NCBI GenBank assembly: GCA_011800155.1
Contig: CM022375.1
Span: forward strand, 1,178,001-1,242,000
DNA: 64,000 bases
Reading direction: 5' to 3'
Origin: Flammulina velutipes
Lineage: Eukaryota > Basidiomycota > Agaricomycetes > Agaricales > Physalacriaceae
Positions 7,004-29,971 of the stretch are shown here, one piece after another (position 1 is the stretch's first letter; the number at the start of each line of letters is the position of its first letter). The position numbers were made by a program, and so were the translations under genes. The notes beneath the pieces were generated by a model. It did not search any database and was not told where the DNA came from. It worked only from the letters and a program-made list of their open reading frames with translations.

Positions 7004-10000
7004 ATGTCAGACTCTTTCCCTTCAACGTTCAACCTCCTCCCTTCGAGACCGCGTGCCCTACGTCAAGATGAGATAGATGCTCTTATAGTGCGCTGTTCAA
7101 CATCTATCTGCTTTGTGGGTAAAGCCTGACCTAGTCTCAGTTCACTTCAATGGTTGAGATGCGGGTTCACTTCAGATATGAATTCAAGTACTAATTCAAG
7201 TGTTCGTGCTTAAATTTGAAAGCTTTTCATAGTAGTCACTGGCTGGGTGATGTCATTCATCTTGCGCGCCTTAAGTTCACTCAGATTTGAATTGGCGGTG
7301 ACGGTTAATTCACTTCAAGTTGAATTGATAGCACGCCTCAATTCACTCAAGGTTGAATTGGTAGTAACATAATTCATCTAATACTGATATGCTTTCTAGA
7401 CTATGATAATGAAATACCACTACGGGTTGGGAGGGCTCTGGGCGGACCCGGCGAGAACAGGGAATCTGTATGGCGAGGCACGCGAGAGGCTGGGATTTGG
7501 TAACGAAAGGGTTGCTTGGTTGGCAAAGCTATGGTCGGGTTCAGTAGAGGACAGGCGGTGGAGGTCCTGGAGGGGATACATTGACGCACGGGCACAATAC
7601 CGGAGGATGCACCACGTCGCTGAATGTATCTGAGAAGTGGTCAACACTGAACAGGTCAAGAGAAATGCAAATATACCTGTAATACAGCCTGCAACACTGG
7701 AGGACCCAAGACAATTTCACATTAGAAGGGTTGCAGAGCGACAACCTGAAGCCTGAGTGTCGTCAACAAAGGAGACAGTAGCGAGCTGGCAGCAAGAGAT
7801 AGTGGTTGAAAGGAAAACAACTGACGTGGCATCGGACCGACTGGATCAAACATTCACGTGATAGAGCTTGCTGCCGGCGGCACGACTTGTCCATTTTCCA
7901 TCCAGTCTACAAGGTATGTGCTTGGTTTTCCTTGTTTATTTTGATCTGTATATGGGCGGTATAGTGTTGCATAATTCTAGATGGCACTTTTTTTGTCGTT
8001 TTACATGATTGTATTTCACTTTATTCAAATTGATATTCACTTATGTGAATGTGGCGTCACTTCATCAAATCAAATTCCACTTTGACAATGTCGTGCTGGC
8101 TCCCTCAAATTGGCTTGCAGTTTGACAATATCTGCTTCACTTTGGCAAAAGCAGTTTCACTTCTCAAAATTGGCAAATCCACTTGAGCAATATAGCTTTA
8201 CTTTCAACTTTCAAGGACGAGATGTTCAAGATAGAGTTTTACATTTAGATTTGAGCATCTACATAAGCACCCAGAAGTAGAGCGGCTCGACAATACACAT
8301 CAATTCCCCAATTTCCGTCATCCTCTGTGAAGTCAAAATCCCCGAGCGCCTCTCGGGCCTCCTGAATATCAGCATCATCATGTAGCGCTGAGTTAGGATC
8401 TGACGGATCTACTGGAGGCACAGCCAAACCCGCGTCTTCAACACCCTCAACTCCGTACCATCCATCAACCAATGAGATATTGTCCCCGACATCTCCAGTC
8501 CAAACTCCCTGGTTCATAAGTTGCTGCCGGCTGAGCTCGTACATAGCGACTGGGGTGCGATAATGCGCCGTTCGGATCTGATGGTGGTTCCATGCGTGCT
8601 TGGCTCGATTGAGAGATTCCTGTATTCGGGGCTGGAATACAAGGTAAAGCGCCAGACTTTGGATGGGATTTTCCTTCGACCAGAGTTCGTTCCTTTCCAG
8701 GTAGAGAAAAACTTGACGAAATGCCTCTAGACTGTCCTTTTGAATGTCCACCCATAGACGCTCGATGCGCACATTATGTGTGGATCTAAAAAGAGATAAG
8801 TCTTGAGCATAAAATGAGAATATTGTACACACCTCCCCGAAGATATGCTCGATGAGCATCACCCCATTTAGCCAGCATAGCCTTTTCTATCCCATTATTC
8901 TCAGTTCCAAAGTCTCCCCGTACACGACTAGGCCAACCCAGTTCCTTTGCGCCTGCCAGAAAGCACTGTAGAACAGTGTCGGATCTCTTGTTGGAACGAC
9001 ATTCCATGTAGACGATGAGGCGTGAGTGCCCATCAACGCATCCGTGAACCCAGAATCCCCAGTGTTTGAGCTTCTCATGACCGTCTTGATGCCATAGAGC
9101 ATTGGCGCCGCGAACTTTGTAAACACGTCTCTTAGTGACATTGCGCCATCTGGAGAAAGTTTAGTATATATTGACACATAGAAAATGTGCAGCGCACCTT
9201 GTCAGGACACCAAGGATATCCACCCGTCGCAGACTATCTTGAACTCTTTTCCGCGGTATATGAACTCCCATGGCCTCCAGATGACCCATCATAATTGCTG
9301 AGCCAATGAAAGGATGCTCCAACGATTTTTTGGCGACAATTTCATCGAGGTCCGTGTCTGATATTTGACTGAATTCCTTCCTCTCAGGTGAGATGCCAGC
9401 GCGCTGAAGGTGTCGATAGAGGGTAGTTCTATTCACCCCGTAGGCCTCTGCTATGCTCTCCCATGAGTTTCCCAGATCATGTAAGAGGCAGAGACGTTGA
9501 ACATCTATGTTGAATGAGGGACGTCCAGGATGGCCTGTATATATCCGGTGAAGGTAGGATGCAATAGGTGCCGGGGGCGTCTCTAGAAAGCGGTCTAGTT
9601 CCACAATGTGCAAGTCAACATAGTCCAGCATATGTTCCACGTCCAAATGAGCTAGATGAGGGTCGTCGAGAGAATGGAGAATAGTCCGAATGGCGTACAG
9701 TTGGTGGACAATACGTTCGACAGTAGGGACCTCAGCATTGGGAAAGGATGATATGGCGAAGCGGGCTTCGTTGACGATACTATGGCTATGAGAAAGGAAG
9801 ACCTGAATAGGATCGCGCGTAGTCATGTTGGTGGGTTGGAAAGATTGACGGAGCTCGGGCCGTGCAGTTGACGCTCAGCGCCTACAAAAAAAATATAAAT
9901 ATATGTATCAAAAAACTACAAGAACAGCTACAAGAACAGCTACAATAACTAGCTAAACAAGAAATAAGCTAAGACAATAGGTATAATACTCTAAAAAGGC

Positions 10001-13000
10001 TTGAGTCGATTGACGACTAATGTCAAAATTGTACAGATGTCAATCCAAACTTTAGGCTGCGTTGCATTTCGATCTGGGTGGTAGGTCTAGATAGAGAGAA
10101 TATCAGCTCCACGTTGCAAACATAGTTGGTATGATAGTACCTTCTGCGCGGCCATCCAAGCAGCCTTGTTGGTGGCTCCGTCTGTCGAGGTTTTGAATGT
10201 ATCCCGTGTGTCGCGATTAGGGTGGGGGAAATCGCGTTGAAGGCGCCGGATAAGTTCTGACCATCCCAGGCCTTTGCTTTGCTCCAACTTGTGCGCTTTG
10301 GCAATACGGGGATCCTGGCGGACAGTTGATGTTGAGGGTGTTGAAGTAGGCATGGTATATGTATCGGTGTTGTCTGCGTTCCTCGGAAACATGTAACGAA
10401 AGTATGTTGCTGGAACGATATCAGTATGGAATAAGTGATTGAGGAATGGAACATGTACCGGGAATAATAAGCTCCAGATACCACTCGGTATCGATGCCGT
10501 ATGGCATTGGTTTGATATCTACGTCAGAGTCAATAAAAGAAGATGGGTAGACGAACGAAAAAACTAACTGGTGTCGGTGGGAATATCCCCGTTCACAGGC
10601 TCATAGTTCCCGGTCCTAGAGTTTAGAATAATTAGAGAGAGAGTAAGAATGGATGAAAGGGAAAGACGTACGTTGGATTGAACTTGGTGTCTTTTTCCTC
10701 AATGTCATTAGGACGGGCTTGATTGTAGAGGTTTGGATGCTAAGAGAATGATAATGAGAATAGACTAAAGAGAAACACAAAAGACATACCTGCAGGACAT
10801 GGCGCATCTTCCATCCAACACATAGAAGAAAGTCGCCGACAACCTTCAAGATACCCTCGTACTCCCGGTTCACGGGGCGCTCTCTCACCAAGTATCTGCT
10901 GCTTGCTAGCAGCAGATCCAATCCGAACTGGCCGGTACTGAGAACATCGATTTTGAGATCTTGGGCCCGAGTGGAGGTTCCTGCAAAGGCCTGGATATGA
11001 TCTTGGATACTGTCCGCTCCGATAGCGACGTCGCGAATCATGCGATCAAGCTTGATGAAACCAATGTGAACGGAAGTATGGGGCGCGGCGAATCTCTGTG
11101 TTATAAGAATCAGCAGTATTCAGATATTGAATAAAAGACGCTTACAATGTGATCTTCAAGAAGACCTTGATTAACTACCACCATCGCCTCCAACTGACGG
11201 AAGCCGGACTTGGGGAACCAATGACATGGTTTGACGTTGTCGAAGAAGAAGTTGAGCAGGCAAATGATGTCGTGGCCATAGTCAGAGAGGCGATCGTGGA
11301 CCTCAACCAGGAGTGTGTAGTCGGCGTCCGACAGGCCAGCCAGTTTGGCTACTTGTTCAATCAGTGTCGACCAGGCAGTGAGAGCCTCCACTGCAGAAGT
11401 GATACCCAAATTTCCTAGACGCATGCGACGAGAATACTCTGGAATAGTGTTGGGTGTACTGCCGAGAGGGGCACTGCGTATAGCATGAGCTAGTCTTGAT
11501 AAAGGGGCCATTGCCTCAACGTAGTGGCCGGCGGAAGAAACCATTTCAGTAGCCAAGTGGGGATGTTCGCGCAGTGAACCCTTGAGGGTAGTATCGAGAA
11601 TGCCTTGAGCATGTCCGGTGACTGGAGGAAAGTTGGAATATGGCAGGATAGATGAGTGTGCGTGCTAAGAATGGTTTAGAAACAGTATCATTCAAGCCGA
11701 ACATGGCTTACCCATTTCCCACTGGCCCCGTAAGAGCTGCTGCCCCCAATGATTTTAAGAGCGTCTGGAGGTGCGTGGGTATTGACCACAAGACGCTGAG
11801 CGTCTGTGATCGATTTGGGTATTGTCAAAACCTATTAATGTTCAGCAGAATCCACAAATGCAGAATGATACTTACACGACGTGAAGTACTGGAGCCAACG
11901 TCTGGCGCCGTCGCTGTCGCTTTGGGCTCGGTAAGGTTGGCGGTCGGTTTGGCTTCCACCGGGGACTCAATGTTCATGTGGTTACCATCGTTAGTCTTGC
12001 GACGCTTGTATGTCCGTTTGGGAGCTGGTGAGGATGACCGCTGGAAAGATTGTTAGATGTGTATATGACAGAGAGATATAACACACCTTTTTTGATGTAT
12101 GACCCTCTGGTCCCTCCATATCTTGATAGTTTGATGCTAGGCATACATAGAGACAATACTTGACGTCCGACGGCTTGACCTTCGACGGCTGGGACTTGGA
12201 GAATTGCCTGAATAAACAAGGTTTAGTATCTGGGAGTCGAGAAAACAATGCACTCACTGGCTCAGCAACTTAAAGTCCAAGGCGTCCTTTTGCAACCAAT
12301 CCGTCGGCTCCAAAGCGCTGGCTGTCCCTTGTCCGCGCCTAACCAACTTCATAACATGGAAGATGGGGGTGGTGGTTGCGTCCTCTGGAGCTTCTTCCTC
12401 CTCGTCGACAATCCCGTTACCGATGATGTCTGACGAGACGTCCGAAATTGCCTTAATGATGTCCTTGCAGGTTGCACTAGTGTTGACCTGAATTTTTCGA
12501 ACCAGATTGTACTCTGGCTGGCGAAGCTCGTTAAACCTAAGGCGTATTCTATTAGTTATAACATGCAAGAATGTAGTGTAGAATACGCACATTTCCTCTG
12601 AGGGACGTCGAAGTTCTCCTTTGTGTGCTGCCGTAGTCCATGGCTGCCAGCACACAGTAACCTCCTCGACTGGAACTGAAACCTCCGCCTGCATGCTCTT
12701 CTTCTTTGCCTTTCCTTTGGGGGCGCGTCCCGTCCTGTTCTGTAAGCGCTCACTAACGATCTGACAAGTGGTTAGGAAACAATGGAAACATGATTATAAG
12801 GTAAATCTACCTCTTTGGCCGGATCGAAGGCTCCCGTACTAGACTTGGCTTCATTGGTGCGCTCTTGGGTCCTGGCCTTGGAGGCATCAACGAAGGCGGT
12901 TGTGCTGGCTTCCTTTTCCTTGGACTCCTTGTCCTTGTGGGCATGAGAGCCCGCCACGAAAGGTGATGACTTGAAGTCCCTCCAGGATGTGGCCTTGTGG

Positions 13001-16000
13001 AAGGCGTCGGAAGTCGTGCGCGTGTTTTTGATAGTGTCTGACGTGGCCCCGCCGAAAGCAGCCGCGTCTACCTTGTTGGTATTTGCTGAGGCCTAATTGA
13101 GAATAGGTCAGACAGCGTATAGGGCATGAGCGTGAGGTCAAGACGTACGGTCGATCTCGAAGCTAATGATGGTTCGGGCTGAACGGAATCCGGAACCGGC
13201 GGCTTCTGATAATCAAAAGTGAGAAATCTAAAATAGACCCAATATGGGCATGAACGCACCCTGGGGACGTGAGACGCCAGATAGCAATGGCAAATGGAGC
13301 ACTTGTCAAAAGGCGCCCACTCGGACATATCCTTGCCTTCGACGTAGGCGCAACCACACTGCTGAGGGCAGTCATGTTTTTGGCAGGCGTCGAGGGTTTT
13401 GGGATCGAAAGGCATCTTAGTAGCTGGATTTTTCTGGTGGGAGTGTAAGGCAGGATGGGGAAACGGAAACGTTCTCTGGTTACACATCTTTTATACTCTC
13501 ACTACAGCGACAGGGCCAAATAGAGAGACCAAACAACTGTGGCGCGGCGTACTTGATTAATTCCTGCCCCAAAAGGGATTTTTTTATTGTGCTTTGAGCC
13601 ACTCTCATTGTTCTTCCAGCTACTTACATTATTTGTACAGTACGGTTGCTAGGTCATGTAGCTGGCAACGGACAGCGGACAATCCTCTTAATTAAAAAAA
13701 TGACCCCCAATTGTCACGGTATTCGGGTCCCCTCGTTCTCCTATTCCTATCAACGTAGTTCTCCCTGAGAAGATCTCATTATCCTTGAGAAACTGTGTTA
13801 ATATAACAGGATTCAGAAAAAAGAGATAACATACTCACCCAAAGTGCATAATTGTCCAAGTCGGTATACCGACTAGCTGACCGTAAGGGCTGCGTTGGCC
13901 AATTTGTACGCCGCGCCGAGCAATACCGAAATGAGACGGGAAGAGCGCTGCCATCGGCCGAGTTGCAAAGACAATCCGCAAAGTCCGCGGCGCTACCGTT
14001 TAACGGTATGAAAATGCACGTGTATAAATTAAGACAAGGTCAGTATCAGACTCTCCCGTTCAACGTTAATAACTCACGGTATTGAGAAGCGCGCGAACCA
14101 CAGCATTGAATAAAGGAGGTAGGTTGGCGGCCCGGGTGTAAGGGCGTTGAGACGGGACCCCACGTTTAAAGGACCTATTGGTGAGGTGAGCAATCATTCC
14201 GCAGGCGTTAACGCTCTCACCGATACCAGACCCGTCCGTTCAGCGAAGTGACCTTCCACCCTTGCGCGGAACGTCCCCATGGCGCGTCCGTTGCTTGCCA
14301 GTCCCAGTTGAATGTTCCAGTCAGCAGCTAGTCGGCCGTCGGTCTCATTTCGAGCAGTCGTCGAGCAGCCCGGTCGTCGTTGATTGGATTGCTGGAGTCG
14401 GATATCCCAACGGCTGGTGTTGGGGGCAGTCGGTGGCCCGGGTCTGTTGATGACGGTCACGTGGACTAGACGCGCTCTGTTGATACAGCGCCAACCTTGC
14501 ACACGCGTCGTGGTAGTGCGATACAAGGCGCGACGGCCGCAATTCCAAGACGCTGCGGCGAGCAGGATGGTGCCAGGTAGTAACGTGGTCGCGTCGCGCG
14601 ACGGACGTTGGTTGGATGGAGTCGGCGTGGTCACACCAACAAGACTGATATGATCTCCTTGTCCTGTACAGAGCACCTGCGCGATTGGAGATGTGGACGG
14701 CTGCCTAGCAGACTTTAGGCTGGTGGGATTGCTGGCAGGGACGGACGTTCAGAGCGCTGAAAGGGGTAGGCATGCAGGCAGACTTACTTTAATGACTTTT
14801 GTGTCGACGACTCGCGAGCACGACAATGCGACGTCAACGGCGACGGCGACGGCTGCAACTGCAACGTCAACAGGGACGGCTACAACGGCGACGAGAATAA
14901 CGGCGACGAGAACGACAGCGACGGGAATAACGGAGACGACAATGGAGACGACGTCGGAATGGAGACGACGTCGGTGGGGTGGTGAGGGCGGAGATGAGCA
15001 TGGCAAATGGACGTGCGCTGTGAGTGGGTCTTGGGAAGGTGGGAAGGTGGGAATTTATGGAGCCTGACAGCGACGACATCGACGGAGACGCGCAGAGGTG
15101 GTGATGAGGTCTGGGTCCAATAATTGCGGTCACGGGGATGAAACGCGCTCTGTTGATAGAGCCCGCATGAGGCTTCTAACACTGCGAACGCGACGACGTG
15201 ACCACCCTAGACCTGGTGGATGGTTGGATGGTAGGTGGTGGGTGTAGAATGATGGAGCGAACCGGCCTTCAGCTGAAGGGGCTGGTATGAGGAGCGCAGG
15301 TGTACCTTGAGCGACTGTCGCGACGCGGCGGCGAACGTGGCACTGACGACGACGAGGATGGCTAGGACGACGACGAGGATGGCTAGGACGGTGAGAGCGA
15401 TGAGAACGGAGATGGCAACGGCGGCGAAACGATGTGAACTGACGCCCCCGGACGTCGTGAGTGGGTCGAGGGAAGGGGTGTGGGAACTTCTGGAGCCTCC
15501 AGAAATTCCCACAGTCGATCAAGAGCGCTCAAGAGCGTTAGATACGACGAGCTCAAACGTTGAGGTCTAGGAAGTTAAGCTGAGGCTCATGGCTGAGTGC
15601 AAGAGAGAGTCGACCTGCCGGCAAACTCCGAAATCCGGACTCCGTCCGCGGTCTTCGCTCTAGATGAGTTCCGTCACCGTCAGACGGACTTGCTACTGCC
15701 TGCCAGCGCCCGCCGACTTATCATTTCCCGCCTGGCCCAGCAACCATGATAGGCATTGACCTGGATACCCTGGACCCGGAATCTCTGGAGCAGCTTAGGA
15801 CTATGCTGGACCGCCATGACGAGAACTTGACCCCCGCGTGGCAAGCTATACATCTCAAGCTGTCTTCAACTCAATCAGGTGTGCTACCTTTCAATACCAA
15901 GTGTCTTGAATACTAACGTTTTAACGGTAAGCAGGCTCCCTTCCCACTCCAACCTCAACCCCTCAAAGAGAACAACACCACCGTTCGGCCTCTGGTAAGA

Positions 16001-19000
16001 CGACACCCAGGTCTATATATAGAATCTTTTTGAACATAGACTTGGATAGGATTCGACTTCACTATAAATGTTCCACCCCGTCCCGATTTCCAATCAACGG
16101 ACTCGCCCCCTGCCCACCAAGTGACTAGGGCCCCAGCCCCCCCAGTCTATGACAATTCCGTTGAATATTTTTTGGCGGAGTCGACCGTGACCTACGCCAA
16201 CCAAGCTAGCGCCCAAGTCTTTGATGATTCGGTTGAAGCCTTCTTCGCCGACTCAGCCCTTTCAGACGACGAAGATACAGACCGCGGACGCGCTGCAGAC
16301 CGTCAACCTCAAGAGAGAGGTAGTAGCTGTCACCGTGGCGGAGTGGTACCTCCACCTGGGATGATACACTTTGCCCACGCGCAACAGCGGGTGCAGCAAG
16401 CGCGGGCGCATGACCAGGTGATGCAAGACAGCAATGAAGCTGGTACTTCTAGCAGCCAAACATCGAACTCACCTGCAACCCAACACTCAACTTCGGGGGC
16501 CGGTTCCATGACAACAACTACTCCTCAATCCCATATATTCTCCTTCACGTCTCCGATCCAGCCCTCCCCCTACGCCAACTACAATGACCCGTACTTCAGG
16601 CCCATTGAGAAGACACTCATTACTGCAGTAACGCGCCTCTGTGGCAAAGCTAGCCGTCTTCTGTACGACGAAGCATACACCAAGGTGTGGGATACTGATA
16701 TTCAACATCTCCTCGGGACCAGTGCACACTCATTGGGAGAAGGAGCGTCCGAGGATACCATGTCGATACTAGTGGGACTTGGGAACGCGTGCCTCGAGGC
16801 TCACCGAGATGAGGATCGAGCCAAGTTTGTTGGAGTCCTGGCGTCGCTTTCCTTAGCAGCCAAGGTACAGGCTTTGATGGAAAAGTAAGTGAATTCCTAC
16901 TTACACATTTCAAGTACTGACTTGTGCCAGAGACAACGTTACTTCTTTACAGAGAGTATGGGAAGTATATGTGCTTCCTCTCAACCCAGGCTACAGTTTT
17001 AGCAAATGGGAGAGGTGGTTTGTGAAAGGCAAACGGTGGGCCCTGGTTGGACAGGCTGGGGGGATTTATTTGGTTCTTCTCATAATCTTCGCGCGGGAGA
17101 CCTCAACGTTTGAAAACGTTAACGTGACTCACATGGTGAATATGGGCTATCACATTCGGGCTCCCCGTCCAGGTATGTTTCGTTTACCTCTCGCTCGTCT
17201 CCTACCTAATTCGCAATATCCAGGCCTCTCATTAACAAGACTCTTTGCTTCAACCTTGGCGCCGTCGATCAAGCTCCTTCAAGACACCTTCCCTGTGGAT
17301 TCGTGTCGCCTCTTTGACAACGAGACTCTCAGGGTGATGAAAGTTGATTCAAACGTTCGGCTGGAGGATTGGGTATCATCTGATGCCTTCTTCAAAGCTT
17401 TCAAAACCAAGTGCGTTCCATTTGTCTCATCCATATTTATCTGATTGGCCTATAGCACATTTCATCTTCCTTCACGCGACTTGACATTCTGGGCACGCGG
17501 CACCGTCGTCAGCCCCGTATATACTTCTGTTTCCCTGGGCTCCCTTCTTCCCTCACACGATGATGCTGATTCAACGTTGTCGCAGGAGCTTGAGGACCCA
17601 CATGAAGAAGACACAACAATTGAAGCAACGAGTCAGACGTATTGGACGGATGTTCTTGACGCGCTGGCAAAGGTTGAGGGCAAGGAGCACTTGAAAATCA
17701 AGACAGGCTTCAAACCGGATCACCCGCGAAACAAGTTCAAGCTTCGGGCCCCGACTCGGAAGAAGACTTTGGAGTTCACAAAGGCTGAACGTGCTCTCGC
17801 CGAATGCGCTTACGTTCCCAAGGATTTCAAGGATTTTTCGAATCGCGTAAGTCCTCTGTATCTTTATTTATATTGCTGGTGATCATCTCTCCAGTTGGCG
17901 TCACAATTGGCTCCGGGCTATCGAGAGGAGCCGTCTCACTATGTTCTCTTGGATCGAACCGTCATCATGGCCAAGTAAGTACCTGTCGTCTCTCTGAAAC
18001 ACCATGATCTAACCTCCTTTGAGTGACCCAAACAAGTTCACTCATATTGGAGGCCATGATGGATTGCCTTTTGTGATCTCTCTGCCCCCGGCACCTAAGG
18101 AATATGCTGATATTATTATTCCCATAGTCGAGGAGATTTTCCCCTCCATTCTCCGTACGCGCGACTCCGACGACGGTCATCGCTTCTTTGTACTGCATCA
18201 TACGTTCTATAACCGGTCTGCCACCAGAGTAAGTCTTCTTGTTTGTTTCAAATACAGCGTGCGGACTTCTCAACCGGACCAGGGCACAGACGCACCTTCA
18301 TCTGGTGATCCCTGGAAGCACGGGAAAAATGGGAAAAAACGAATCGATCCCTCTCAATGTCTCCCTCGACTATCTACCGAAGGTCAAGACGAGCGCTTGG
18401 AGACTCTGAAGAAAGCGCTCCAAGGACTCATGGATTGGCTGACAGCTCAGGTATGCTTAGCGTTGTTCTATTGACTCTCTTCTCATCATCTCTCTAGCTG
18501 CTCGTTCTATTAAAGGAACACTACACTGTCCTCGATGCATACATCACTGTTCTCCCCGGACCTTCGGCGCCCGCCGTCTACCCTTTCGGAGGCATGGTCC
18601 TCAACTTCAACGTCTCCACTTTAGCTCACCGGGATCACGGCGACAAACGCATCTGTCTTGTCCTTGCCGCGCAAGATGGGGAGGGAGGAGATATTGTTCT
18701 GTATGAGCCTGGGCTGGTTGTGCGTATGTACACTGGACATTCCCTGGTTTTCCGTTCGTGTGATATTACACACTTCAACTTGCCATACAAGGGCAAGCGC
18801 GTCTCATTTGTTTTTCATAGCGACCATGATGGAACAGCGTGGGTAGACAACCGCAATGGCTGGAAGACTAAAGAATACTTTTCCGGTTAATTGTAATTAA
18901 ATATCATTGTGGCGCAAGTGGCGCTAATATTTTCAGTGACATATTAGTGAACTTGGTGTCAAATTACTGAAGTGAAACCTCAGATTGAATAGTGAAAGTC

Positions 19001-22000
19001 ACAATGAAAAAGTGAATGCTCAAAACCTCAAAGTGAATTGAAATTTCCAGAAGTGAATTTAGATTTCTATGAAGTGAAAGTGTGTCTTCAAAGCTAAATC
19101 TGATTTCTGTAAGTGAAGAGAGGTGGAGAAAAAGTGAAATGGTATTTGAGAAAGTGCGCAAAATGGTCAGAACAAAGTGCTGAATTATGCAACAGTATTA
19201 CCGCCAAATCTGTACACACGATTTTGCAGTGGTATACTTACTAATGAGGCGCCGGAGTCACTAGGCTTCGATACCCTGTATCGAGGCTATACGAAGTGCT
19301 CTGTTTTCCAGGTAAGTCATTCTTGTTACTATGTTGCTGTTCCTTCCTAAGGTTCTGTGTGCTCCTAGGCGCTTTGTATCGCTCTTATAGATGTTTAAAG
19401 TGTTCCGGATGATATCTCGGGCCTTCCTTGTGTTCACAATAATGATTTCGCAGCGCGCGTGCGCCACACTTCGTCGTTTTGATGTTCCGGTGGCCCGGGA
19501 TCATGAGGGATCACTTGTATGTGCTAATTAAGATACCTTATAGCATCTGGTCAACGTTTGCGTCGATCGCAACATGGCCAACACCGTTCTGGCGAACGGT
19601 TCGTCGGTATACCGACGTGGCCAGTATGCGCTCGGACGTAATGGTATGTATTGTCTATCGTGTTATTGCCTGAGCTGATGTTCTCATTACAATCACATTC
19701 GTTTTCGTGACTCACATTGGATTTCAAGTCAACCAACTACGAATATCTCAAACAAGCCTCAGGACGAGAACCTTCGTACGGTCCCGCTAGTCGCTAGTAA
19801 GTCGCCATTTCAACCCTCATCATATCAAACTTAATCAACTTGTATAGCTCGCGCCGCGGTGGAACGCACATGCTCTATGCAACCATACCGACAGCATTGC
19901 AGTAGCGCTGACCCCTATGTCTCAAATCTCGACTTGATTGCGACTCATACCGTGAGTAGATTGTATATGCCCTGACACGAGAGATGTGCGAGACCGAAGT
20001 CATTGTCACTCATACACTGCTGGTACGTCTCTACATCCCATTGTTGTTCATTAACTAACTGGGCCTTAGGTATCCAGTTCCTCAGACTACGGCTACGCGG
20101 GGGCAACAAGTTCGACTACGAACCATAGAGTACGTGTAGTACATGTCATTCAGTGTTCGTCACTCACCGTCGTAGCACTCTACCAGTGGGATAGGAATGC
20201 GAACTTTATATATACTGCACGTAGTCATAGTACATGCTCGAATGTTCGCACTATCTGAATAACTATCTGTTTTCAACATACTTTGACATCTACCGCCAAT
20301 TTCGAGCACGCGAGCACACACGACCAACCCCATCCTAATGGATGGCTAGTCAGTATACCAACTTGGCTCATGTGCGTTGCATGCAAATGACAGGTAAAAT
20401 TATCACTTAACCTACCAATGAACATAATGAATCCCTGCGAGGATTATTCTTCTCGTTCTCGCCATCTGGACCACCGCCCGCAACAAGGGTCCCACAGCTA
20501 AGTATCAGTGCACTGTGGTAGATTGAAGATGTACAGTGAGATTGGTTGGTACCAGACAAATTTCTCTCAAAGTTCATCCATATTTGACGTGCATATAGCC
20601 TTCGTCAGCTCCACCCCAGCTCATGGGTCCACACGCGCCACACCATGATGACGACATTCACGTGACAACGTGGCCACGTAGTCCGGCCGCGGCCTGCCGG
20701 TATTTGACTTGGTGTGAATCGTTCTTGTCCATCTACGCCCACTACCAACGTTTCAACTCCCAAGCAGCACAATATCCCAACGTTGGACACTGTTGTGGAG
20801 TCGAACACCGGCCTACTGCTGTGATAAGGAAAACCCTCTTCGGACGCTAGTGCAGCACCGCGACACGGCAGGAATATTGGATGGCTTGTAGCCGTTGGGG
20901 CAAGGATATAAATGGTGCGAGTCTTTCTTTTACCTTCCCTTTTCTCGCCTCTCTGATATTTTTCTAGATTCTGACCTAGCTTGACCTACCAGTGCCCCCG
21001 TCGTTCCCAACTTCATCAATATAGCACAACGGCCTACCGCCCTTGGATGGCCTGCATGCACGTTGATGAGGGCCTGATGCCAGTATGACTGCTCACGCGG
21101 ACAGAAGCCAGGTGGGTACGAGGGGGGGACATATTATTGCCCTGTCGACCATAATCGACGCTCTGACCAGGTAATACCTACTAGGTTCCAGGCGCCCGCC
21201 CAAGGCTAATCCGCCTGAGGCCTGAAGCAGGACTCTAGGTGCGTAATGTTGCTCCATCACTGCTGTTTCTTTGCTAACATTATTTGCTCCAGATGACGGG
21301 CCCCCGCATATGTATTGTGTTTATACCACAACACCCGCTCCCTCTCCTTCTCTATTACCTCTGATGCCAACTCCTCTTCCCGGGCCATTCCCTAGTGCAG
21401 AACCTACTCTAGCTCCGGTTGTTGAATTGAAAGCTATCAAGAAGGCCATGTGGCGACCGTGGGTCACATGTTCTCCGATTTCGATGTTACTTTTGGTCAC
21501 CATCGGACGTGGCCATGGCTGGCTGTTACTAGTTGGGAAGTACTGTTGGTTCTGCCTTGCCTTGTGTACATAGCTATTCAATATGAATTGAATTCTGAGC
21601 TGCTAACTATGTTCAAGTGAATTGAATGTCACTCTCAATTCACTAAAGATGAATTGATGTGCGCTGTCAATTCAAGTTCAAGTGAATTGAGGGTGTGCTT
21701 CAATTCAAGTTCAAGTGAATTGAGTACGCGCTTCAATTCACATAGGATGAATTGAACGCGCCCATCAATTCAAATTCAAGTGAATTGAACGCGCCCACCA
21801 ATTCAAGTTCAAGTGAATTGAGTACGCGCTTCAATTCACATAGGATGAATTGAACGCGCCCATCAATTCAAATTCAAGTGAATTGAACGCGCCCATCAAT
21901 TCAAGTTCAAGTGAATTGAGGGCGCGCTTCAATTCAAGTTCAAGTGAATTGAGTACGCGCACCAATTCACATAGGATGAATTGAACGCGCCCATCAATTC

Positions 22001-24383
22001 AAATTCAAGTGAATTGAACGCGCCCATCAATTCAAGTTCAAGTGAATTGAGGGTGCGCTTCAATTCAAGTTCAAGTGAATTGAGGGTGCGCTTCAATTCA
22101 AGTACAAGTGAATTGGACGTCGCTCTCAATTCACTAAGGATGAATTGAACATCACTACCAATTCAATTCCAGGTGAATTGGTATCACTATTGTATGTATA
22201 TACATTTAATGTAACATCATATAATACCACTACAAACTCAACAAACAAGGTATCCAGCAGTATGGCTAACAGTCACCCCAGTCAATGATTCAGTACTGGC
22301 CAGTTACCATGTTCACTTCAAAATTGAAGTGAACCCGCATCTCAACCATTGAAGTGAATTGAGACTAGGTCACCCTGTTGTTTGTGGAACTAATGAATAA
22401 CGTTAACAGGAGCGCGGCATGAAAGGCGAATACAGTGTCTTGGTCGATCTTCAAGCCTCCCTTCTAGACGAGCGATGCGACGTCAACTTGACGGACATCC
22501 TCCAGGTCGTCTCCCATTTCCTATCAAAACCATACCTTGCTCGGGCGAGGCGGATGCTGGTAAAATCCAAACGGAATCCTGCGGTGCTAGCCGTCCATCC
22601 CATTTCCACTGGGATTCTGGCATTGCAGATAGCTCTGGATGTATTCATCACAGCAAACTACGACAACAACTCTCCTCTTTTCGATGCCGTCATCAACATC
22701 GTCCCCGCAGTCGCAATGTGGTCCGCCACCCTCCTACATTTCCTTCCCATCTTAAATGATGAACTCATCATCATCCTGTGTTCCGTCTTGAGTTCTCTGC
22801 ATTTCTCGACGCCCTCCATAGTCGCCGAAGTCGTTCGAGAGCAATTGCCCCTGACCACTCCCGCAATCCTAGACGTATATCTGCACCTGTCCAAACTCGA
22901 CATCTCCAAGTCGCTTTCGTTGCAGGAAATCTACCATGACATCGTCCCAGCTTTTCTTTTCCACACTGCGAGGCTCAACGAACAACCCAACCGGGGTACT
23001 CGTGCGGCACTCGAGACTCGCTCGACCGCTCTTGCGGAGACGCTCCTTCGAGACTATATAGCCGTGGTGGGCGATGTCCACAGTGGTAGGGTGATGCAGC
23101 TTCATCGTCACACATCCCTCATATGCGCGCTGTACGTCGTTTATCATGCATCACCTTCCATCCGTCGAGCCATGACCTGCAACGGGCTTCTCCAGGCTTT
23201 ATGTCGCTCCATCCACAGGACTTCCCGATTGGAATTCGACAAGCCCGGTGATTGGCTGAGCATATACAACCTGTTGTGGCGCACGATTATGATCCTCTCT
23301 GGCCTTCTCTCTGGTCCAGAAGCAGTTATCCAAGCGCTGAAGGGCAGGATCCTATCATCGGTACTGAGGATGCAGAGTGTCGTGTATAGATGCGCAGCGA
23401 CTTCCCAGGATCGTAGCCTCGCTCAGAATATTGGGATCTACATATTGGGGTTGATGAGGCGTTTGGAGGCATTCCTCATTTTCCCGTCCTGCCATCACAC
23501 GTTTGCGAAAGCTATTCGGTACGTCAATCGGAAGCTCATCGCCAAAGGGAAAGTGTACCAAGAGGGTGGGATCTTCGAAGCTTTCTTGGGCTTATGCAGG
23601 ACGTTTGAGATCCGGGTGGAGGAGAGATATCTTTATCGCTCGAATTTGATATGCACGAATCCTTCGGTGTGTATGAATCGTTTCAAGTGGTATTTCTCTT
23701 ACGGGCATTGTTTAGTGTCAAATGAAAGAAATCATGTTGATCAAGGCCTCGCCCAAGCGCGGGAGACAATGCACTGGCTGTATGACCAGCGAGTACTGCT
23801 CGAAGGAGTGCCAAATGATACACTGGAAGGCGGGTGGACACAGAGAGCATTGCAAAAGGATACGGCGTGGCCGCCTCGGTCTGTCATTCAAATTGCTATC
23901 AACGACACATAAACTTACCCGCTCCTAGCCCGTCTTTCTATCGTTCCCAAATCACCGTACGACATGGACATGATCCATATGCTTGTGTCATTCGACTTGT
24001 GGCGCAACGTAGGCAAGATCAAAACCCTAATGGATCAAGTTATGGCTACCCAGGGCGTCAACATGACCTCAGCTGGAACTAATTCACTCTCGCTCGACGA
24101 AAGAGGGGGGAATATATCATCGTTGGACCACATATCAGCTATCGCTATTGATTACGGTGACCCAAATGGACCTGAAATACGTGTGGATCGCCTATACAAC
24201 ATTCACCGGGCGGACAGGTTTATGTGGAACAATCTGGACTTTGACGAGGTTCAGTGGATGGAGACTTTGAAATTGAGGCAGTCGGGTTGGAATATCGTCG
24301 TAATGGTCGATTCAACGTTGGTTGATTTGACGGATGTGGATTCTCTGTGGAATAGAGTCTATCCTGTTGAACTATTTGTATAG
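7004..24383 (+). CDS. MYND zinc-finger protein, paralog 1, split by a 15.3-kb transposon-filled intron
   Basis: Exons 7004-7087, 22410-23666, 23716-23878 and 23929-24383 give 652 residues, the same length as the two paralogs at 26465 and 30447. Exon 1 (28 codons, ending RQDEIDALI, donor GTGCGC) aligns with the paralogs' first exons ending RSARDLYL and RSERDSYI. All three first introns are phase 0. The acceptor at 22408-22409 follows a CTAAT branch-like site. The remaining introns are 49 and 50 nt. The MYND finger has ligands C443, C448, C466, C469, C475, C479, H489 and C493. The helical region before it and the C-terminal DLTDVDSLWNRVYP segment match the paralogs. MYND fingers bind proline-rich peptides in partner proteins. 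Whether the giant intron is still spliced is unknown. Confidence 0.75.
7127..7174 (+). repeat. left terminal inverted repeat, outer element
   Basis: 48 bp, inverted copy of 22325-22372 with one mismatch at the 14th position. Confidence 0.85.
7175..7380 (+). repeat. left subterminal AATTCA/TGAATT repeats of the outer element
   Basis: Four to five degenerate units containing TTCACTCAAGGTTGAATTG-like hairpins. They are the same type as the long array at 21580-22200 but more divergent. Confidence 0.55.
7944..7950. repeat. left target-site duplication of inner element (ATCTGTA)
   Basis: The 7-mer directly abuts the start of the inner element's terminal repeat and reappears at 19208-19214 directly after its other end. 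Confidence 0.65.
7951..7977 (+). repeat. left terminal inverted repeat, inner element
   Basis: It pairs with 19182-19207 on the other strand. The common core is GGCGGTA followed by TGTTGCATAATTC. Confidence 0.7.
8010..8215 (+). repeat. left subterminal TTCACTT-type repeats
   Basis: Repeated TTCACTT or close variants (TCCACTT, TTTACTT) interleaved with CAAATTGG and TTTGACAAT words. They mirror the AAGTGAA repeats at the right end and are likely transposase binding sites. Confidence 0.55.
8245..9826 (-). CDS. DDE integrase-core transposase of the inner element
   Basis: Exon 1 starts at ATG 9826. It has an N-terminal helical region, a helix-turn-helix-like stretch (WESIAEAYGVNRTTLYRHLQ, about residues 130-150) and ends VLTR. 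A 47-nt intron follows. Exon 2 has WHQDGHEKLKHWGFWVHGC with VDGHSR (first catalytic Asp), then SRVRGDFGTEN (second Asp). The last part has STHNVRIERLWVD (catalytic Glu) and an acidic tail. This order (HTH, D, D, E, with an HNxRIERLW signature) is that of the integrase-core family found in fungi and fish. It is not a KDZ or hAT transposase. Oddity: the obvious second intron (near 8840-8794) joins out of frame by one base. Only an unusually short 31-nt intron keeps the frame, so the copy may be frameshifted. Confidence 0.7.
9827..10086. other. short AT-rich intergenic spacer
   Basis: Spacer between the integrase start and the stop of the Cys-rich gene, both on the minus strand. It holds a direct repeat of ACTACAAGAACAG-like words near 9915-9945 and AT-rich sequence suited to a promoter or 3' end. 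Confidence 0.4.
10087..13415 (-). CDS. Cys-rich multi-exon protein of unknown function, inner element
   Basis: About a dozen exons on the minus strand. The ATG at 13415 opens with a Cys/His cluster: C11, C16, C20, C22, C39, C42, C44 and H49, a plausible zinc-binding module (CQKHDCPQQCGC, then CSICHCYLASH). A Lys/Glu-rich linker follows, then LRQPEYNLVRKIQ, a basic Arg/Lys patch (PAPKRTYKRRK near 12020), a helical region (LTAWSTLIEQVAKLAGLSD) and a C-terminal segment ending LCLQRGADILSI. Consistent open frames linked by donor/acceptor pairs about 50 nt apart support one gene; exact splice sites were not all fixed. The combination of a Cys cluster and basic linker suggests nucleic-acid or protein binding. 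Its place between the transposase and the dioxygenase suggests a role in the element, but I do not recognise the family. Confidence 0.6.
13416..15745. other. 2.3-kb divergent intergenic region with GC-rich ACG repeats
   Basis: It lies between the divergent Cys-rich and dioxygenase genes. It has AT-rich sequence on the left, a perfect 14-nt palindrome GTCGGTATACCGAC (13860-13873), then GC-rich sequence. Imperfect (ACG)n-type arrays occupy about 14820-14970 and 15340-15430. A segment with CGCGCTCTGTTGATA is present twice (about 14470 and 15145), so part of the region is duplicated. Open frames here are Arg/Thr-rich by-products of the repeats. Confidence 0.5.
15746..18890 (+). CDS. TET/JBP-like 2-oxoglutarate/Fe(II) dioxygenase protein, inner element
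   Basis: Nine exons (15746-15878, 15935-15994, 16050-16884, 16931-17172, 17224-17410, 17456-17846, 17895-17974, 18024-18450, 18498-18890) give 915 residues with every junction in frame. An optional in-frame 54-nt intron lies at 18229-18282. The C-terminal core (about residues 786-905) has FGGMVLNFNVSTLAHRD with Fe ligands H829 and D831, then EGGDIVLYEPGLVVRM, distal Fe ligand H877 in SCDITHFNL, and R886, likely the 2-oxoglutarate anchor, in KGKRVSFVFHSD. This pattern fits fungal TET/JBP proteins, which oxidise 5-methylcytosine (or thymine in JBP) in DNA. The N-terminal two thirds are unrecognised, with a Ser/Pro-rich stretch. The start is the first ATG consistent with exon 1 and its donor. 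The superfamily is fairly sure; the exact substrate is inference. Confidence 0.72.
18940..19160 (+). repeat. right subterminal AAGTGAA repeats
   Basis: About eight copies of AAGTGAA or close variants in 220 bp. This is the inverted counterpart of the TTCACTT repeats at the left end of the inner element. Confidence 0.6.
19182..19207 (-). repeat. right terminal inverted repeat, inner element
   Basis: On the minus strand it reads TTGGCGGTAATACTGTTGCA then TAATTC, matching the left end with a small indel. It is directly followed by ATCTGTA. Confidence 0.7.
19208..19214. repeat. right target-site duplication of inner element (ATCTGTA)
   Basis: Identical to 7944-7950. Confidence 0.65.
19215..21580. 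other. body of the outer element, no recognisable gene
   Basis: Only short frames are present, none with family likeness. A perfect 16-nt palindrome CGTCGGTATACCGACG lies at 19602-19617. Some splice-like pairs occur around 19700-20100, but no exon chain could be built. The region may be a decayed coding part of the outer element. Confidence 0.4.
21583..22190 (+). repeat. tandem array of about 31-bp hairpin units (CAATTCA...TGAATTG)
   Basis: Close to twenty units. Each is a near-palindrome such as CAATTCAAGTTCAAGTGAAT plus TG, separated by short GC-rich spacers (AACGCGCCCAT, AGGGCGCGCTT, AGTACGCGCTT). Spacers and arms recur in mixed order, showing expansion by unequal exchange or slippage. 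The array lies just inside the right end of the outer element. Confidence 0.85.
22325..22372 (-). repeat. right terminal inverted repeat, outer element
   Basis: 48 bp, inverted copy of 7127-7174 with one mismatch. Confidence 0.85.
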
Positions 24384-26464
24384 TCTATGAATGAAGTCGC
24401 GTAATGTGCTTCTCAACGGTGTGGTAATGTCGAACGAGTACTGGACGTTGGATTTTGGCCACGAGCTCCGTTGAAAATAAAAATAGAAACTTTATCACGT
24501 GATCGTGTTTGACCCCAAGAAAAACACGCGTGCCGGATTTCAGCCCCAACGGCAGGCCGTATCGGGAAGGTTGGGACCAAATTGAAATAGTCGTCAGTCT
24601 TTTTGCCAATCTCTTTGTCGATGTCGCTCGCTGTGAAGACGAAGACGTCGAGGATAGCGCCCACCACGACGGCGACGGCGATGCCCCAACCATGACAACG
24701 AGGACGACACCCTCGTCGCATCGTTCCCCGCATTCTTGAAGCGTCTCCCTCGCCCTTCAGTCTTCGTCGAAGCTCTTTAGCTTTCGCGACGACACTGGCC
24801 TCCAATCTCATGTCGCAGAAACCAGCTCGACGCCGGAGGAGAAACCATCTCGGAGAGAACGCACAGGGAGAAATGGTCGCCAGCGAAGATAGATAGAGGC
24901 TGGAAGGATGCCATACCAAGGTGTGTTGCCCAAAATAATTACGTCTCGTAGGCTCACTGTTCTCGGATAGACTGAGTAACACAGATCTGTACTCTGACAC
25001 CGTTCACCTGTTGTCTTGAAGGATAGGTGCGCATTGTGGCGCAACCATTTGGACGTTGCTGACTTTATCAACCAGATTCCGTACACATTTTCCGACGGCA
25101 TCTAAACAAAATTAGATACCCCAACGCACACACTCATCTCGTCCAAACGGCTGCTCAACGACGGCACTTCTTGGAGGATGAGGACGGCACTCAAGGCTGG
25201 ATACGACCTACACCGCACCATTACACCAGCCAAGGTTTATTACAAGGCGGTACCAAGATTGGACGTCGACCAGGAGCCTGGTCCATTTTCTACTGGCCCA
25301 GTGTCACCGTTCAGATGTCCAACTTGTGCAGTACCGACGCTGCTCGCTCACAAAAGTCCCCACTCCGACCCGATTTCATTGGATTCATCGACGCACTCCG
25401 AAATCGACTTGCAGTCAAAGGCTTAGCCCTACTCTCTCCTTGCTATCGACGAGGTCGTCTTCACGTAATCAGGCAGTGCAGGAGAAGATGATCTCGTCGG
25501 ACGTCACCATGTCTCCAAGTTGGAAGGACGACGATGGTGTCGTTCTTACTTGAACAGCGTTTCGGTCTCGTCAACCTGGCCGATCTTTTGCAGGAACCGT
25601 ATGCGACACCTCCTACAACCCCAAACACGGCTCAGGCAGCTGCACCATCTTCATTTCCATCCGATGGACGGTCTATGTCTGTCCTCCGGCAGAGGGGACG
25701 GTGGTCAATACCGAACGCCCGATAGAACTACACGCCCACTCTCAGCCCGAGATTCGCCCCGTTTGCCAATGCACACCATACACAACGCGGCATCAACATT
25801 CATCCCAACCGCTTTCAACCCAATCGTTCTTCCTCATTGTTCCATACAAACACCCAATCTGTCTCACATCCTGGCCCATCGTCGACAGCTACAATGATGT
25901 AGGACATATCACCAACGGCGAGCAAGATTGAGGTGTTTCCTTCCAAACTGCACTACGACGGATTAGGTGCTGTGGTAAATGAGAAGAGGCAGACGTGGAT
26001 TGGCAGGGTCCCCTCCGTCTACCGTGAGTGGGAATGGAGAGATGAACATGGCTAGATGGAAGGCTGTGGGTGCGGAGTGACGAATAGCGCCCACCCAGAC
26101 AGTGTTGCAGAGGGACTGGTAGTCAAGTGCGACTGTGTGTCATCAGGTCCTGGTCCAGATATACTGAAAGGGGGAGCTGGTATATGAAGCTCATTCGTTC
26201 TTTGCCCACTCCCGGCCACCCCCCTACATCGATCCGTGCATACTTACATGTTTCTTCTATCTCACACCTCTCCTCTTATATAGGCTCTTCCTATGTATCA
26301 GCATATCCCCACGCAGCTCTCAGTACAACGGACCCTCTTACGATATAACGCTTTGGCCATACCAGATAACCGCCTGACAATGTACAACCTCGACGAAAGT
26401 TCTTCGGCAACACGTGATTACGCATAGTCCCGCGCAAACAACCTTTGCTTCTTTCCACCATCTC
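24384..26464. other. intergenic between MYND paralogs 1 and 2
   Basis: No supported gene. It includes a CGACGAC-rich stretch (24620-24720) that makes long but uninformative frames on both strands, Ser/Pro/Thr-biased frames at 25170-25930, and one GTGGCGCA motif at 25036. Confidence 0.4.
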
Positions 26465-28573
26465 ATGCAAAAGATTACTTGTCCATTGACGCGTTCCGCA
26501 CGCGATTTATACCTTGTGAGTGTATTTCTCTTAGATTGACATTGTACTTAATCAATCACTAGCGACAGGCGCAACATGGCGACGTGCTAGCCATGAAGAC
26601 ACTCTCCCATGCGTTTGCAAACGGATACGCAGGGATCTTGAACGACCTTCTTGGATTCGTATCCCAGGTCCTTTCGGAACCATGTCTCGCGCTCGCGAAA
26701 GCCAGCATGCCTATCTTGACGCCTGAGGAATGGATGAAGCAGAGTGTAGTGCTAAACGGCAATCGCGCATGCGAGATGGTCCGTTTTGGACTCGAAGCCG
26801 AGTATCGCAGGACCAGAAAACCTCTACCACCAGCTCTGCTTCGCATCTGCGTTCGTGTTGGTGCTTGGGCCACCATGTTCATTCAATCCACACGCATTCT
26901 CGACCCCGAAGACCGTCCTCTAGTCAACGAAGAGCTTCTAGCCACTAGCGGCATGGTTGGCGTTCTGCATGCAGTATTCATTAATCAATTCACGAAGGAT
27001 ATCATGAGGCATCCTTCTTATCCGCTTTACGAAGTTCTCGTACGCGTTTGCATTCGCATATCACCTGGTTACACGGAAGTCGAGAAAATGCGGGCCTCTG
27101 ACTTTTGCTCAATCATCATCGTTGCGTTCCAGGACTGCATGCGTGACCCACACCCCACAGGATTGTGGGTAGCCCTTGAACGACATGCCGCCGACCTGGC
27201 AGGATTAATGGTCGAAAGCGTCGCAACATACATCGGGATTCCCATCGGCAAAGGCTCCAAACCCCTCGATAACGTAGAGCCCCAGATTCTGCAGCTCGCT
27301 GGAGTAACCGTCGAGGTTCCCGCCCTCCGACAGGAGCTTTCAGCGCGGGGCATGCTTCCTCTCCTCTGTCGCCTTTTCCACAAGGAGGTTCGTGAGGAAG
27401 TTGAGTTAGACCTGGGGGAAAAGGCGCAAGAGGATCTCATGTTTCTACTCAACAACCATATCCAGGGGATCAACCACTTTCTCGCAGGAGGTCACCCATC
27501 TGCGGCGGTGGCTCTGGAGGCGCGCATACTTCCGAATCTCATTCGCACACAGGCGCTGCTGGATGATCCTCGAGGAGCGGGGAAGATCGCCACTCTGGGA
27601 CTAAAACAATCGATAGCTGGGGCCATCTATAACATCGAGGTGCAGCTTTTCCATAGCTCCGCCCTCCGCGCGTTTCGAAAATCGGAACGATACGTTAAGC
27701 GACTCCTCGCAGGAGGCGTTATCTACAAGGGCGTGGTCTGGGAAGGATGTCTCAGGCTTCAATCTATGGCAGAGAAGAGAACACGCGAAATGGAGAAGAT
27801 GAATATGGAGCGCGTGGCGTGTGCGAACTCGTCTGTGAGTGCAAACATTGTGGCGTAAAGGTGTCTCGACGCTTACGAAACAATGTGTAGTGCACTTCGG
27901 CTGCAAAGAACATTGATGCGAGAATCAGACGATGCTCAGGCTGTCTCACGGTCGAGTATTGCTCGTGCAAATGTCGTCGCATACACTGGACGAAGGGAGG
28001 TCATAGAAAGAGTTGTGCGGCTATTCGGAGCCTTCGTGATTGTATGTCTCTCTACTATAATGTGTACCTCTCTCTCATACCATTGAAGCCGGATCGACGC
28101 TCGCTCCCCCCTGTACTCGGGATATGAACTTCATCTACTTTCTCATCGCGCAAGAGATGGAGCGGAAGCATCTGGATATCCTGGAGAAGTTAAAAGAATT
28201 CGCAAATTTGAAGACACTTGCCGAATACCCATCTGGCCCCATTCGAGGTCCCTTTCACACCCATATGGATGATTGGATTTTTGCCGACACCGTTCTCATG
28301 TTTAATTTCGCTCCTAACATTTATACTCTCCCTGCTACGCAGACTTTCGATATACACTTCACAGTATCCTCTATGGATCGATTCCGCAAGCATCTCACTC
28401 AGGAAGAGGAGTGCGATTTTGACTTTCAAAGGATCCAGGAAAGCGTCGAGGCTCGGAGGTCGAGGGGACCGTTTGTCGCTATCGTGTCGTCCTCGAATCT
28501 CTTGGATTTGACAAATAGAGAATGTATAGTTAACCGGGTGTATTCGTTGGATTACTCTCATTCTATCAAGTAG
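26465..28573 (+). CDS. MYND zinc-finger protein, paralog 2
   Basis: Exons 26465-26515, 26563-27834, 27891-28041 and 28089-28573 give 652 residues. The three introns are 47, 56 and 47 nt with phases 0, 0 and 1, as in the paralogs. The short first exon (17 codons) was found by matching upstream residues QAQHGDVLAMK to QAQNGDRLAMQ in paralog 3. The MYND finger uses C437, C442, C456, C459, C465, C469, H479 and C483 (CSGCLTVEYCSCKCRRIHW). A long alpha-helical region of about 430 residues precedes it. The C-terminus has GPFVAIVSSSNLLDLTNREC, shared with paralog 3. MYND fingers mediate protein-protein contacts, often in transcription control. The CSCKC variant inside the finger carries an extra Cys. 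The specific role is unknown. Confidence 0.85.
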
Positions 28574-28829
28574 AATTGTTGGCTTCGTTGTTATTGATGT
28601 TTACTGTGTTCTGACAGACAATGCCAGATGAGTGGCGCAACAAAGGAACATCATCTCGCGACTAGTCGGACTCTATGAACGACGATATACCCTCTGGGCT
28701 TGCTAGCGTTCAAACTCATAGATCATTTATGGACTTACAGGCGGATAAGTCTCTATATCCAAACTCACGCAGGATCTAACTCACTGTGCCGGTCGAAAAA
28801 TGAGATTAAGGTCAACATACCAGGGTATT
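28574..28829. other. short intergenic spacer
   Basis: Convergent 3' ends of MYND paralog 2 and the acidic secreted protein. One GTGGCGCA motif at 28632. Confidence 0.4.
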
Positions 28830-29384
28830 TCATCGATTTCCCCCCCACCACGCCTTAGCCTTTTCCCATCCGTTCCCGCTGTCCGAATCCTCAGCATCAG
28901 CTGCAGGCTCCTCCTCAGCATCAGCTGCAGGCTCCTCCTCAGCATCAGACTCCTCCTCTGCATCAGGCTCCGACTCCTCCTCTGCATCAGGCTTATCCAC
29001 TACTCTGATGATACTGTCGCCGTCTGAAATAGAGGGGCCGTGGTCAGTTGACTTTTACTACTCCAAAAGCCTGTTTCTTACCATCGTCAGTCTCTCGGCA
29101 AAGATACCTTATATTACGCTTCTTGACTTCGCGGGCGTCGCCGCAATCTTCAATATTAGATTCCGGAAAACTGAAGCCTGAATCTGCAGTGTCTGACGAG
29201 TCGGACCCGGAACGCCGTTCAACTTGGGCATTACGGTTACCACGTCTTGCCAAACTTGAGGGTTTTGATCAACATCTCGAAACATCATGTAACGCGCAAC
29301 GTACCCAGAAGTAGCCCGGCCGAAAACAGAGGTTGCGCTCAGCGCAATAGTCAGGAGTACGAGGACAGAGGACTTTCTGAACAT
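28830..29384 (-). CDS. small secreted acidic protein with Glu/Asp-rich repeats
   Basis: Three exons (29384-29305, 29254-29082, 29023-28830) join in frame to 148 residues; the introns are 50 and 58 nt. Residues 1-22 are a clear signal peptide (MFRKSSVLVLLTIALSATSV plus FG). The mature part has dibasic sites (ARRGNR, VERRSG, VKKRN) of the kind cut by the Golgi protease KEX2. The C-terminus is a run of imperfect acidic repeats (DAEEESEP, DAEEEPAA) followed by NGWEKAKAWWGGNR. The repeats are visible at DNA level as a CTCCTCAGCATCAG pattern. A TATATAAA box lies 76 bp upstream of the ATG. It is likely a secreted, possibly processed peptide precursor or small secreted protein; no family is recognised. 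Confidence 0.65.
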
Positions 29385-29459
29385 GTTGCAATTGGAGTGA
29401 GTTCTTTTCTAGACGGCCTGCGTCTGAAATGGTGGAATTCTAGACAGTATATACAGGTC

Positions 29460-29467
29460 TTTATATA
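29460..29467 (-). promoter_or_regulatory. TATA box of the small secreted protein gene
   Basis: TATATAAA on the minus strand, 76 bp before the start codon at 29384. Confidence 0.55.
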
Positions 29468-29887: not shown

Positions 29888-29971
29888 ATTCGACAACCCG
29901 ACCCAAGGCGTCTTCATCTATTTCGATTCAATTCGACAACCTGACCCAAGGCGTCTTCATCTATTTCGAGT
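29888..29971 (+). repeat. tandem duplication of a 46-50 bp unit
   Basis: Two adjacent copies share ATTCGACAAC, CTGACCCAAGGCGTC (or CCGACCC) and TTCATCTATTTCGA. They differ at one or two positions, so the duplication is recent. Confidence 0.75.

Follow-up and report, generated by a model that had tools for sequence, protein, structure and literature searches.

Does a mushroom transposon carry its own enzyme against the cytosine methylation placed on it by its host? This question is raised by a locus in a 64,000-nucleotide stretch of Flammulina velutipes DNA, hereafter the window (C8:1178001-1242000, within a 38.1-Mb genome of 23 contigs). The window contains a complete DNA transposon of 11,258 bp at positions 7951-19208 (C8:1185951-1197208), with three genes encoding a transposase, a second protein with a Cys-rich start and a 2-oxoglutarate (2OG)/Fe(II) dioxygenase, as an earlier note on this DNA had described. 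We consider that this is probably an IS3EU-like cut-and-paste element whose divergent TET/JBP enzyme oxidises host-placed 5-methylcytosine (5mC) on the element and thereby lowers its silencing.

The element, its copies and its ends

The element is present in three close copies, namely the window copy, one on C5 (C5:1094358-1105313, 10,956 bp) and one on C13 (C13a, C13:1316104-1327646, 11,543 bp). A fourth element, C13b (C13:1247276-1258586, 11,311 bp), whose ends are related to theirs without being the same, has an identical gene order and is 74% identical to the close copies in the transposase, 82% in the catalytic dioxygenase exon and 34% in one second-gene exon. The three genes thus stand side by side, in one order, in four elements of the host genome. 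Five short relatives of about 1.6-1.9 kb have ends and target-site duplications in common with the large copies; they resemble these only near the ends and did not match their coding region. Copies that lack the dioxygenase and have different boundaries would, according to the note, have spoken against its reading; the short relatives do lack the dioxygenase, but their ends are the same as those of the large copies.

The transposase matches PF24764 and rve in Pfam, the integrase fold agrees, and the catalytic residues are D, D and E, the last two separated by 34 residues. It is an IS3EU-like protein with a retroviral-integrase-type DDE core. The KDZ domain PF18758 was not found in the proteins of the element, whose only transposon-type Pfam matches were rva_4 and rve, in line with the previous description of a non-KDZ transposon with an integrase-core transposase. 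At the exon 2/intron 2 junction the window copy has a run of 4 G, versus 5 G in the C5 and C13a copies. This one-base difference puts the gene out of frame unless splicing takes a weaker donor, and may stem from an error in the assembly.

A 6-bp target-site duplication was present in eight of the nine elements with both ends examined (window, TCTGTA; C13a, CGCGTC; C13b, TATTTA; and, among the short relatives, L061, CAAAAG; L062, GTGCCG; L063, TCATAC; L064, CATCTA; L065, CCTATT). The ninth is the C5 copy, in which no matching duplication was found at the ends and which may be a recombinant. The duplication had earlier been read as 7 bp. Since the seventh flanking base agrees in just four of the eight duplicated elements, its match is due to chance, and the element therefore ends at 19208, not at 19207. 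All nine elements have a 5' terminus TA and a 3' terminus AA (..CCAAA). When the 38 Mb were searched with the 22 bases of the left end, allowing up to 2 mismatches, seven sites were obtained, all within the listed elements, versus none for the reversed control, so that the recurrence of this end is not a matter of chance.

The terminal inverted repeats of the window element are imperfect and 27 bp long, with 79% complementarity over 28 nt aligned without gaps. The subterminal inverted motifs noticed earlier were also recovered: the terminal 330 bp hold TTCACTT four times on the left and AAGTGAA seven times on the right, whereas the roughly 10.6 kb between them hold none and one, respectively. 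The corresponding counts were 4 and 4 in the C5 copy (middle 0 and 1) and 5 and 4 in C13a (middle 0 and 2). This end-confined pattern was not found in C13b (1 left, 0 right; 1 and 1 in the middle).

Table 1. Features of the transposon and its flanks (window coordinates).
Feature	Position	Strand	Basis or detail
Target-site duplication, left copy TCTGTA	7945..7950	.	End comparison
Left terminal inverted repeat TATGGGCGGTATAGTGTTGCATAATTC, starting TATGGGCGG	7951..7977	+	End alignment, end-sequence search
Left subterminal zone, 4 TTCACTT	7951..8280	.	Motif count
Transposase gene, 3 exons (about 9826-9198, 9149-8833, 8785-8245)	8245..9826	-	PF24764 (rva_4) integrase core and helix-turn-helix
Second gene, about 908 aa, Cys-rich N-terminus (exon calls approximate)	10087..13415	-	Gene model, from the C5 copy
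Hypervariable stretch between the divergent genes, with the dioxygenase 5' end	13500..16200	.	250-column bins
Putative TET/JBP-like 2OG-Fe(II) dioxygenase gene, 10 exons by model, 897 aa	15746..18890	+	H811-R-D813-x-x-D816, H859, R868
Last dioxygenase exon, catalytic C-terminal part with iron and 2OG ligands	18498..18890	+	Dioxygenase gene model
Right subterminal zone, 7 AAGTGAA	18879..19208	.	Motif count
Right terminal inverted repeat GAATTATGCAACAGTATTACCGCCAAA, finishing CCGCCAAA; reading inward TTTGGCGGTAATACTGTTGCATAATTC	19182..19208	-	End alignment
Target-site duplication, right copy TCTGTA	19209..19214	.	End comparison

The dioxygenase and its partner gene

In the gene model, from which a 54-bp intron (18229-18282) is spliced out, the dioxygenase has its ligands in the correct HxD...H...R order. 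The motif itself had been seen before; only its numbering changes with removal of the intron, from H829/D831/H877/R886 to H811/D813/H859/R868. The four residues are invariant in six of six family members, and all six have HRD, that is HxD and not HxE. The ligands of CcTet are H326, D328, H376 and R385 (PMC11040006).

Tet_JBP (PF12851) was the sole oxygenase family matched in Pfam. The window protein aligned collinearly with positions 12-160 of the 164 of this profile, at 14.1 bits versus a curated cut-off of 34.9, and four of the six family members matched it at E<=1 (best 1.5e-8). As the TET label would be too weak from Pfam alone, it was backed by relatives, profile and fold. In the low-confidence predicted fold of a relative, CcTet, TET2, NgTet1 and CMD1 ranked above AlkB and the prolyl hydroxylases. 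The first 16 entries were all TET structures, which led the rest by one Z unit, and their matches extended to model residues ahead of the core (N-terminal extension). Searches of the PDB by single sequence (the domain and P0004) and with the full-length profile A1 gave chance matches only, and little similarity to the six other Tet_JBP-like genes of the genome (A4) emerged when profiles were compared (probability 22%, E 9e-4). Its sequence and, less firmly, the fold modelled for a relative show the dioxygenase to be a divergent member of the TET/JBP family with a full set of iron and 2OG ligands, which agrees with the first assignment. It is very unlikely that it belongs with other 2OG dioxygenases, of the AlkB, prolyl hydroxylase or thymine-7-hydroxylase kind, and has RNA, protein or free bases as its substrate. 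The Pfam score under the cut-off, the general fold common to these enzymes, and the presence of a Neurospora thymine-7-hydroxylase and a bacterial prolyl 4-hydroxylase (P4H) lower in the Foldseek list would allow it, but the lead of the TET structures, which cover residues before the core, argues against it. So does the profile check proposed in the earlier note, in which none of the six members matched a Pfam model of AlkB or P4H at E<=1.

The six other Tet_JBP-like genes (L067-L071 and L074; e.g. C1:2940553, C8:958790 and C9:955256) are of the HxD...GW...HxN type and score below the Pfam cut-off. By their coordinates, L067, L068 and L074 lie at about 10-19 kb from a KDZ match. Their classification as AG-type was dropped, because their profile does not find CcTet in the PDB.

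The amino group (N4) of cytosine is held by D234 in NgTet1 and D350 in CMD1, at CcTet position 331, the human equivalent being TET2 N1387 (PMC11040006). In the alignment D816 occupies this position, which favours 5mC over N6-methyladenine as the likely substrate. V801, H874 and D876 face T1372, Y1902 and H1904 of TET2 (TET2 numbers counted from HRD and the Arg), and V and H were found at the T1372 and Y1902 positions in all six family members. In TET2/Tet3, the changes T1372A, T1372E and T1372A/Y1902F largely stop oxidation at 5-hydroxymethylcytosine (5hmC) or 5-formylcytosine (5fC) (PMC12830177). By analogy, the altered pocket could give an unusual product. It could even be imagined that the enzyme sets a stable mark instead of demethylating, by stalling at 5hmC or by making some other modified base on the transposon DNA; the V/H pair would fit this idea, and CMD1, a relative by fold, yields a different product (PMC12730594). 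We regard this as distinctly unlikely, since the published T1372/Y1902 mutants are not V/H. NgTet1, moreover, does without the Thr/Tyr pair and yet makes 5-carboxylcytosine.

The product of the second gene had no Pfam match and no relative in the database, where scores were computed for the 7996 candidates with the most words in common. With one 173-aa exon as query, the gene was confined genome-wide to the four elements, at 97-100% identity in three of them and 34% in C13b, in which its Cys-rich start was not recovered by pattern search. The second protein matches the tail of P0002, a dioxygenase relative from Cylindrobasidium torrendii, collinearly and with 24% identity (E 6e-5). The local score was 95, while 300 shuffles gave a mean of 46 and a maximum of 78. 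This suggests, without proving it, that the pair of dioxygenase and second gene occurs in C. torrendii too. The P0002 tail scored just 38 against the C13b second-protein model, and it is only partly shown that the second genes of the close copies and of C13b are the same gene. Relatives of the dioxygenase and of the transposase are also present in H. radicata, on separate contigs, and further relatives of the dioxygenase come from Gymnopilus and Coprinellus. In C13a, the second gene carries a 476-bp insert (equivalent to window position ~11020), which is flanked by the 8-bp duplication GATAGCGA and has AGGACCCCCGAATATCC as its inverted ends; we take it to be a short element of the hAT type.

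The residues of AG-type TET proteins (Gly/Ser at CcTet 331 and Asp at 337) were not found in the window protein, which has D816 and V822 there, counted ungapped from HxD. A tentative and unlikely extension of our reading is that the enzyme stands for an additional type of transposon TET, distinct from both PE and AG, which would be 5mC-selective and pocket-altered and would maybe stop at 5hmC/5fC. With the second protein it would form a two-protein anti-silencing module of an Agaricales IS3EU-like lineage, aimed at its own repeat-rich ends.

Selection, host methylation and the proposed role

The ratio of nonsynonymous to synonymous substitution rates (dN/dS) was far below 1 throughout, and the dioxygenase has therefore been kept. 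For its last 300 codons, values of 0.069 (window-C5), 0.028 (window-C13a) and 0.034 (C5-C13a) were obtained, and of 0.06-0.09 versus C13b, with synonymous sites near saturation; its first third is less constrained (0.18-0.25). The transposase gave 0.038 between C5 and C13a (495 codons), and 0.066 and 0.029 versus the window copy, over 389 codons only; its comparison with C13b was left out because dS was not computable. By these codon comparisons the catalytic domain of the dioxygenase is under purifying selection, like the transposase. Among the close copies, identity is 92-100% over the left 5.5 kb and 85-100% over the last 1.5 kb. The bins at about 13.5-16.2 kb drop to 32% (window-C5) and 51% (window-C13a), followed by 78-97% in the next 1.5 kb, which suggests recombination or promoter exchange. 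This stretch of the window (13500-16200) holds GACGAC-type repeats; copies that are alike elsewhere are here hypervariable or non-homologous.

PF24764 gave 30 matches, corresponding to at least 17 loci genome-wide. Four of these have both the dioxygenase and the second gene, one (on C21) lies within 10 kb of a decayed dioxygenase, and in 12 no nearby match was detected with the last dioxygenase exon, the dioxygenase counts also being lower bounds. The latter loci would be expected if the dioxygenase were a recently captured host gene travelling as a passenger, with no role in transposition. This explanation is highly improbable and largely refuted: the three-gene order is kept in the divergent C13b with dN/dS far below 1, all four open dioxygenase genes found with the last exon sit inside such elements, and the same genome search found no intact copy outside them. 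At the C21 locus (C21:41785-51625, L059/L060), the dioxygenase relative is 47% identical, has an in-frame stop and an altered 2OG Arg position, and lies on the same strand as the rva_4 transposase, about 9 kb apart. No flanking ends were found there by a gapless test, which also misses the ends of the window element.

The host genome has matches to C5-methyltransferases. Among the transitions between the three close copies, the share of CpG to TpG/CpA was 49/102, 55/136 and 47/119 in the left 5.5 kb and 36/130 and 32/85 in the right 2.2 kb, where about 24% is expected. This excess fits methylation of the elements. Pairs without a TET gene (3-kb stretches around rva_4 matches) gave 20/41, 17/115 and 78/288, and pairs of short relatives 2/8, 6/15 and 20/61; in this comparison there was no sign of the dioxygenase protecting its own copies.

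In the mechanism that we propose, the host would place 5mC on the element and the dioxygenase would oxidise it. Methylation-based silencing would then fall, so that the transposase could be expressed and its binding sites would become usable. The 600-residue N-terminal part of the dioxygenase, the second protein or both may direct the enzyme to the element. Alternatively, the dioxygenase might oxidise 5mC genome-wide, without being self-directed, to the benefit of all transposons. Oxidised methylcytosine also occurs on retrotransposons in C. cinerea and L. bicolor, for which non-specific action was speculated (Kojima 2025, PMC12730594), and the five small non-autonomous elements, with the same ends and no match to the large-copy coding region, could profit from such an activity. 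We consider it unlikely, as a gene serving all would not obviously be kept under strong selection in one low-copy family.

The element offers a compact, complete and low-copy case of a mushroom transposon that brings along a putative 5mC oxidase. A related element is built in the same way, the short non-autonomous relatives provide natural controls, and the enzyme is under strong selection. The long-debated idea that transposons counter cytosine methylation with captured TET enzymes thus becomes testable, and the altered pocket could mean a TET with an unusual product.

Elsewhere in the window, three long open frames (501, 431 and 506 aa) at 22407-32066 look by eye like tandem paralogues. The third is overlapped by a frame with a Cys-rich stretch (31883-32557), presumably MYND-like.

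Comparison with known systems

The combination of an IS3EU-like or IS3EU-derived transposase with extra captured genes in one fungal element is shared with Styx of Zymoseptoria (PMC10853768). Styx belongs to an ascomycete and has four coding sequences, and the passages of that source used here mention no TET gene for it. The dioxygenase resembles the structures of TET2, NgTet1, CcTet and CMD1 in predicted fold and in its HxD...H...R ligands and, like NgTet1 and CMD1, has an Asp where TET2 has N1387. It differs from TET2 by V801, H874 and D876 in place of T1372, Y1902 and H1904, and sequence identity is very low.

The window element has in common with the TET-bearing (TET+) KDZ elements (Kyakuja/Zisupton) of mushrooms that it is an agaricomycete DNA transposon and contains a TET/JBP gene. 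It differs from them in its unrelated transposase, its duplications of 6 bp versus 7-8 bp and the lack of AG-type residues in its TET. The genome is rich in KDZ elements (166 transposase matches), none of which, among the matches listed, falls within C8:1185951-1197208.

TET+ elements have been described in 11 transposon lineages, including IS3EU of seven rust species and Tuber indicum (Kojima 2025, PMC12730594), so that the pairing with an integrase-core transposase, which had looked undescribed, is already in print. Escape from methylation silencing was also already put forward for TET+ transposons (PMC12730594, Dec 2025). The Agaricomycotina lineages named in the passages of that paper used here are Kyakuja, Zisupton, EnSpm, Plavaka and Helitron2, with no mushroom IS3EU among them. 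Neither an element of this kind in a mushroom nor one that combines this TET type with this partner gene turned up in the literature covered, the supplements of PMC12730594, Repbase and Iyer 2014 being outside its scope. The general pairing is thus published, whereas the specific combination seen here was not found in print.

The rust and Tuber indicum elements share with the window element the IS3-like integrase-core transposase and the TET/JBP cargo, and those of rusts, with ends TAYGG..CCRTA, also the 6-bp duplications and the 5' end TA(T/C)GG (PMC12730594). The differences lie in the mushroom host, the 3' end CCAAA instead of CCRTA, and the imperfect 27-bp inverted repeats instead of repeats over 30 bp (PMC12730594). 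IS3EU termini are stated to be always TA..TA (PMC10045372), and because the 3' end is AA in all nine elements here, we call the element IS3EU-like rather than a plain IS3EU member. Every TET+ IS3EU family described there has an alpha-kinase gene (PMC12730594). None was found in the element studied here: a six-frame search gave eight alpha-kinase matches in the genome and none in the four elements, although a strongly split or diverged domain could escape it. A further difference is the second gene, which had no match in the database. Finally, the TET of the Tuber element is of the PE type with HxE (PMC12730594), whereas that of the window element has HxD. The element adds to both the hosts and the enzymes known for TET+ transposons with an integrase core.

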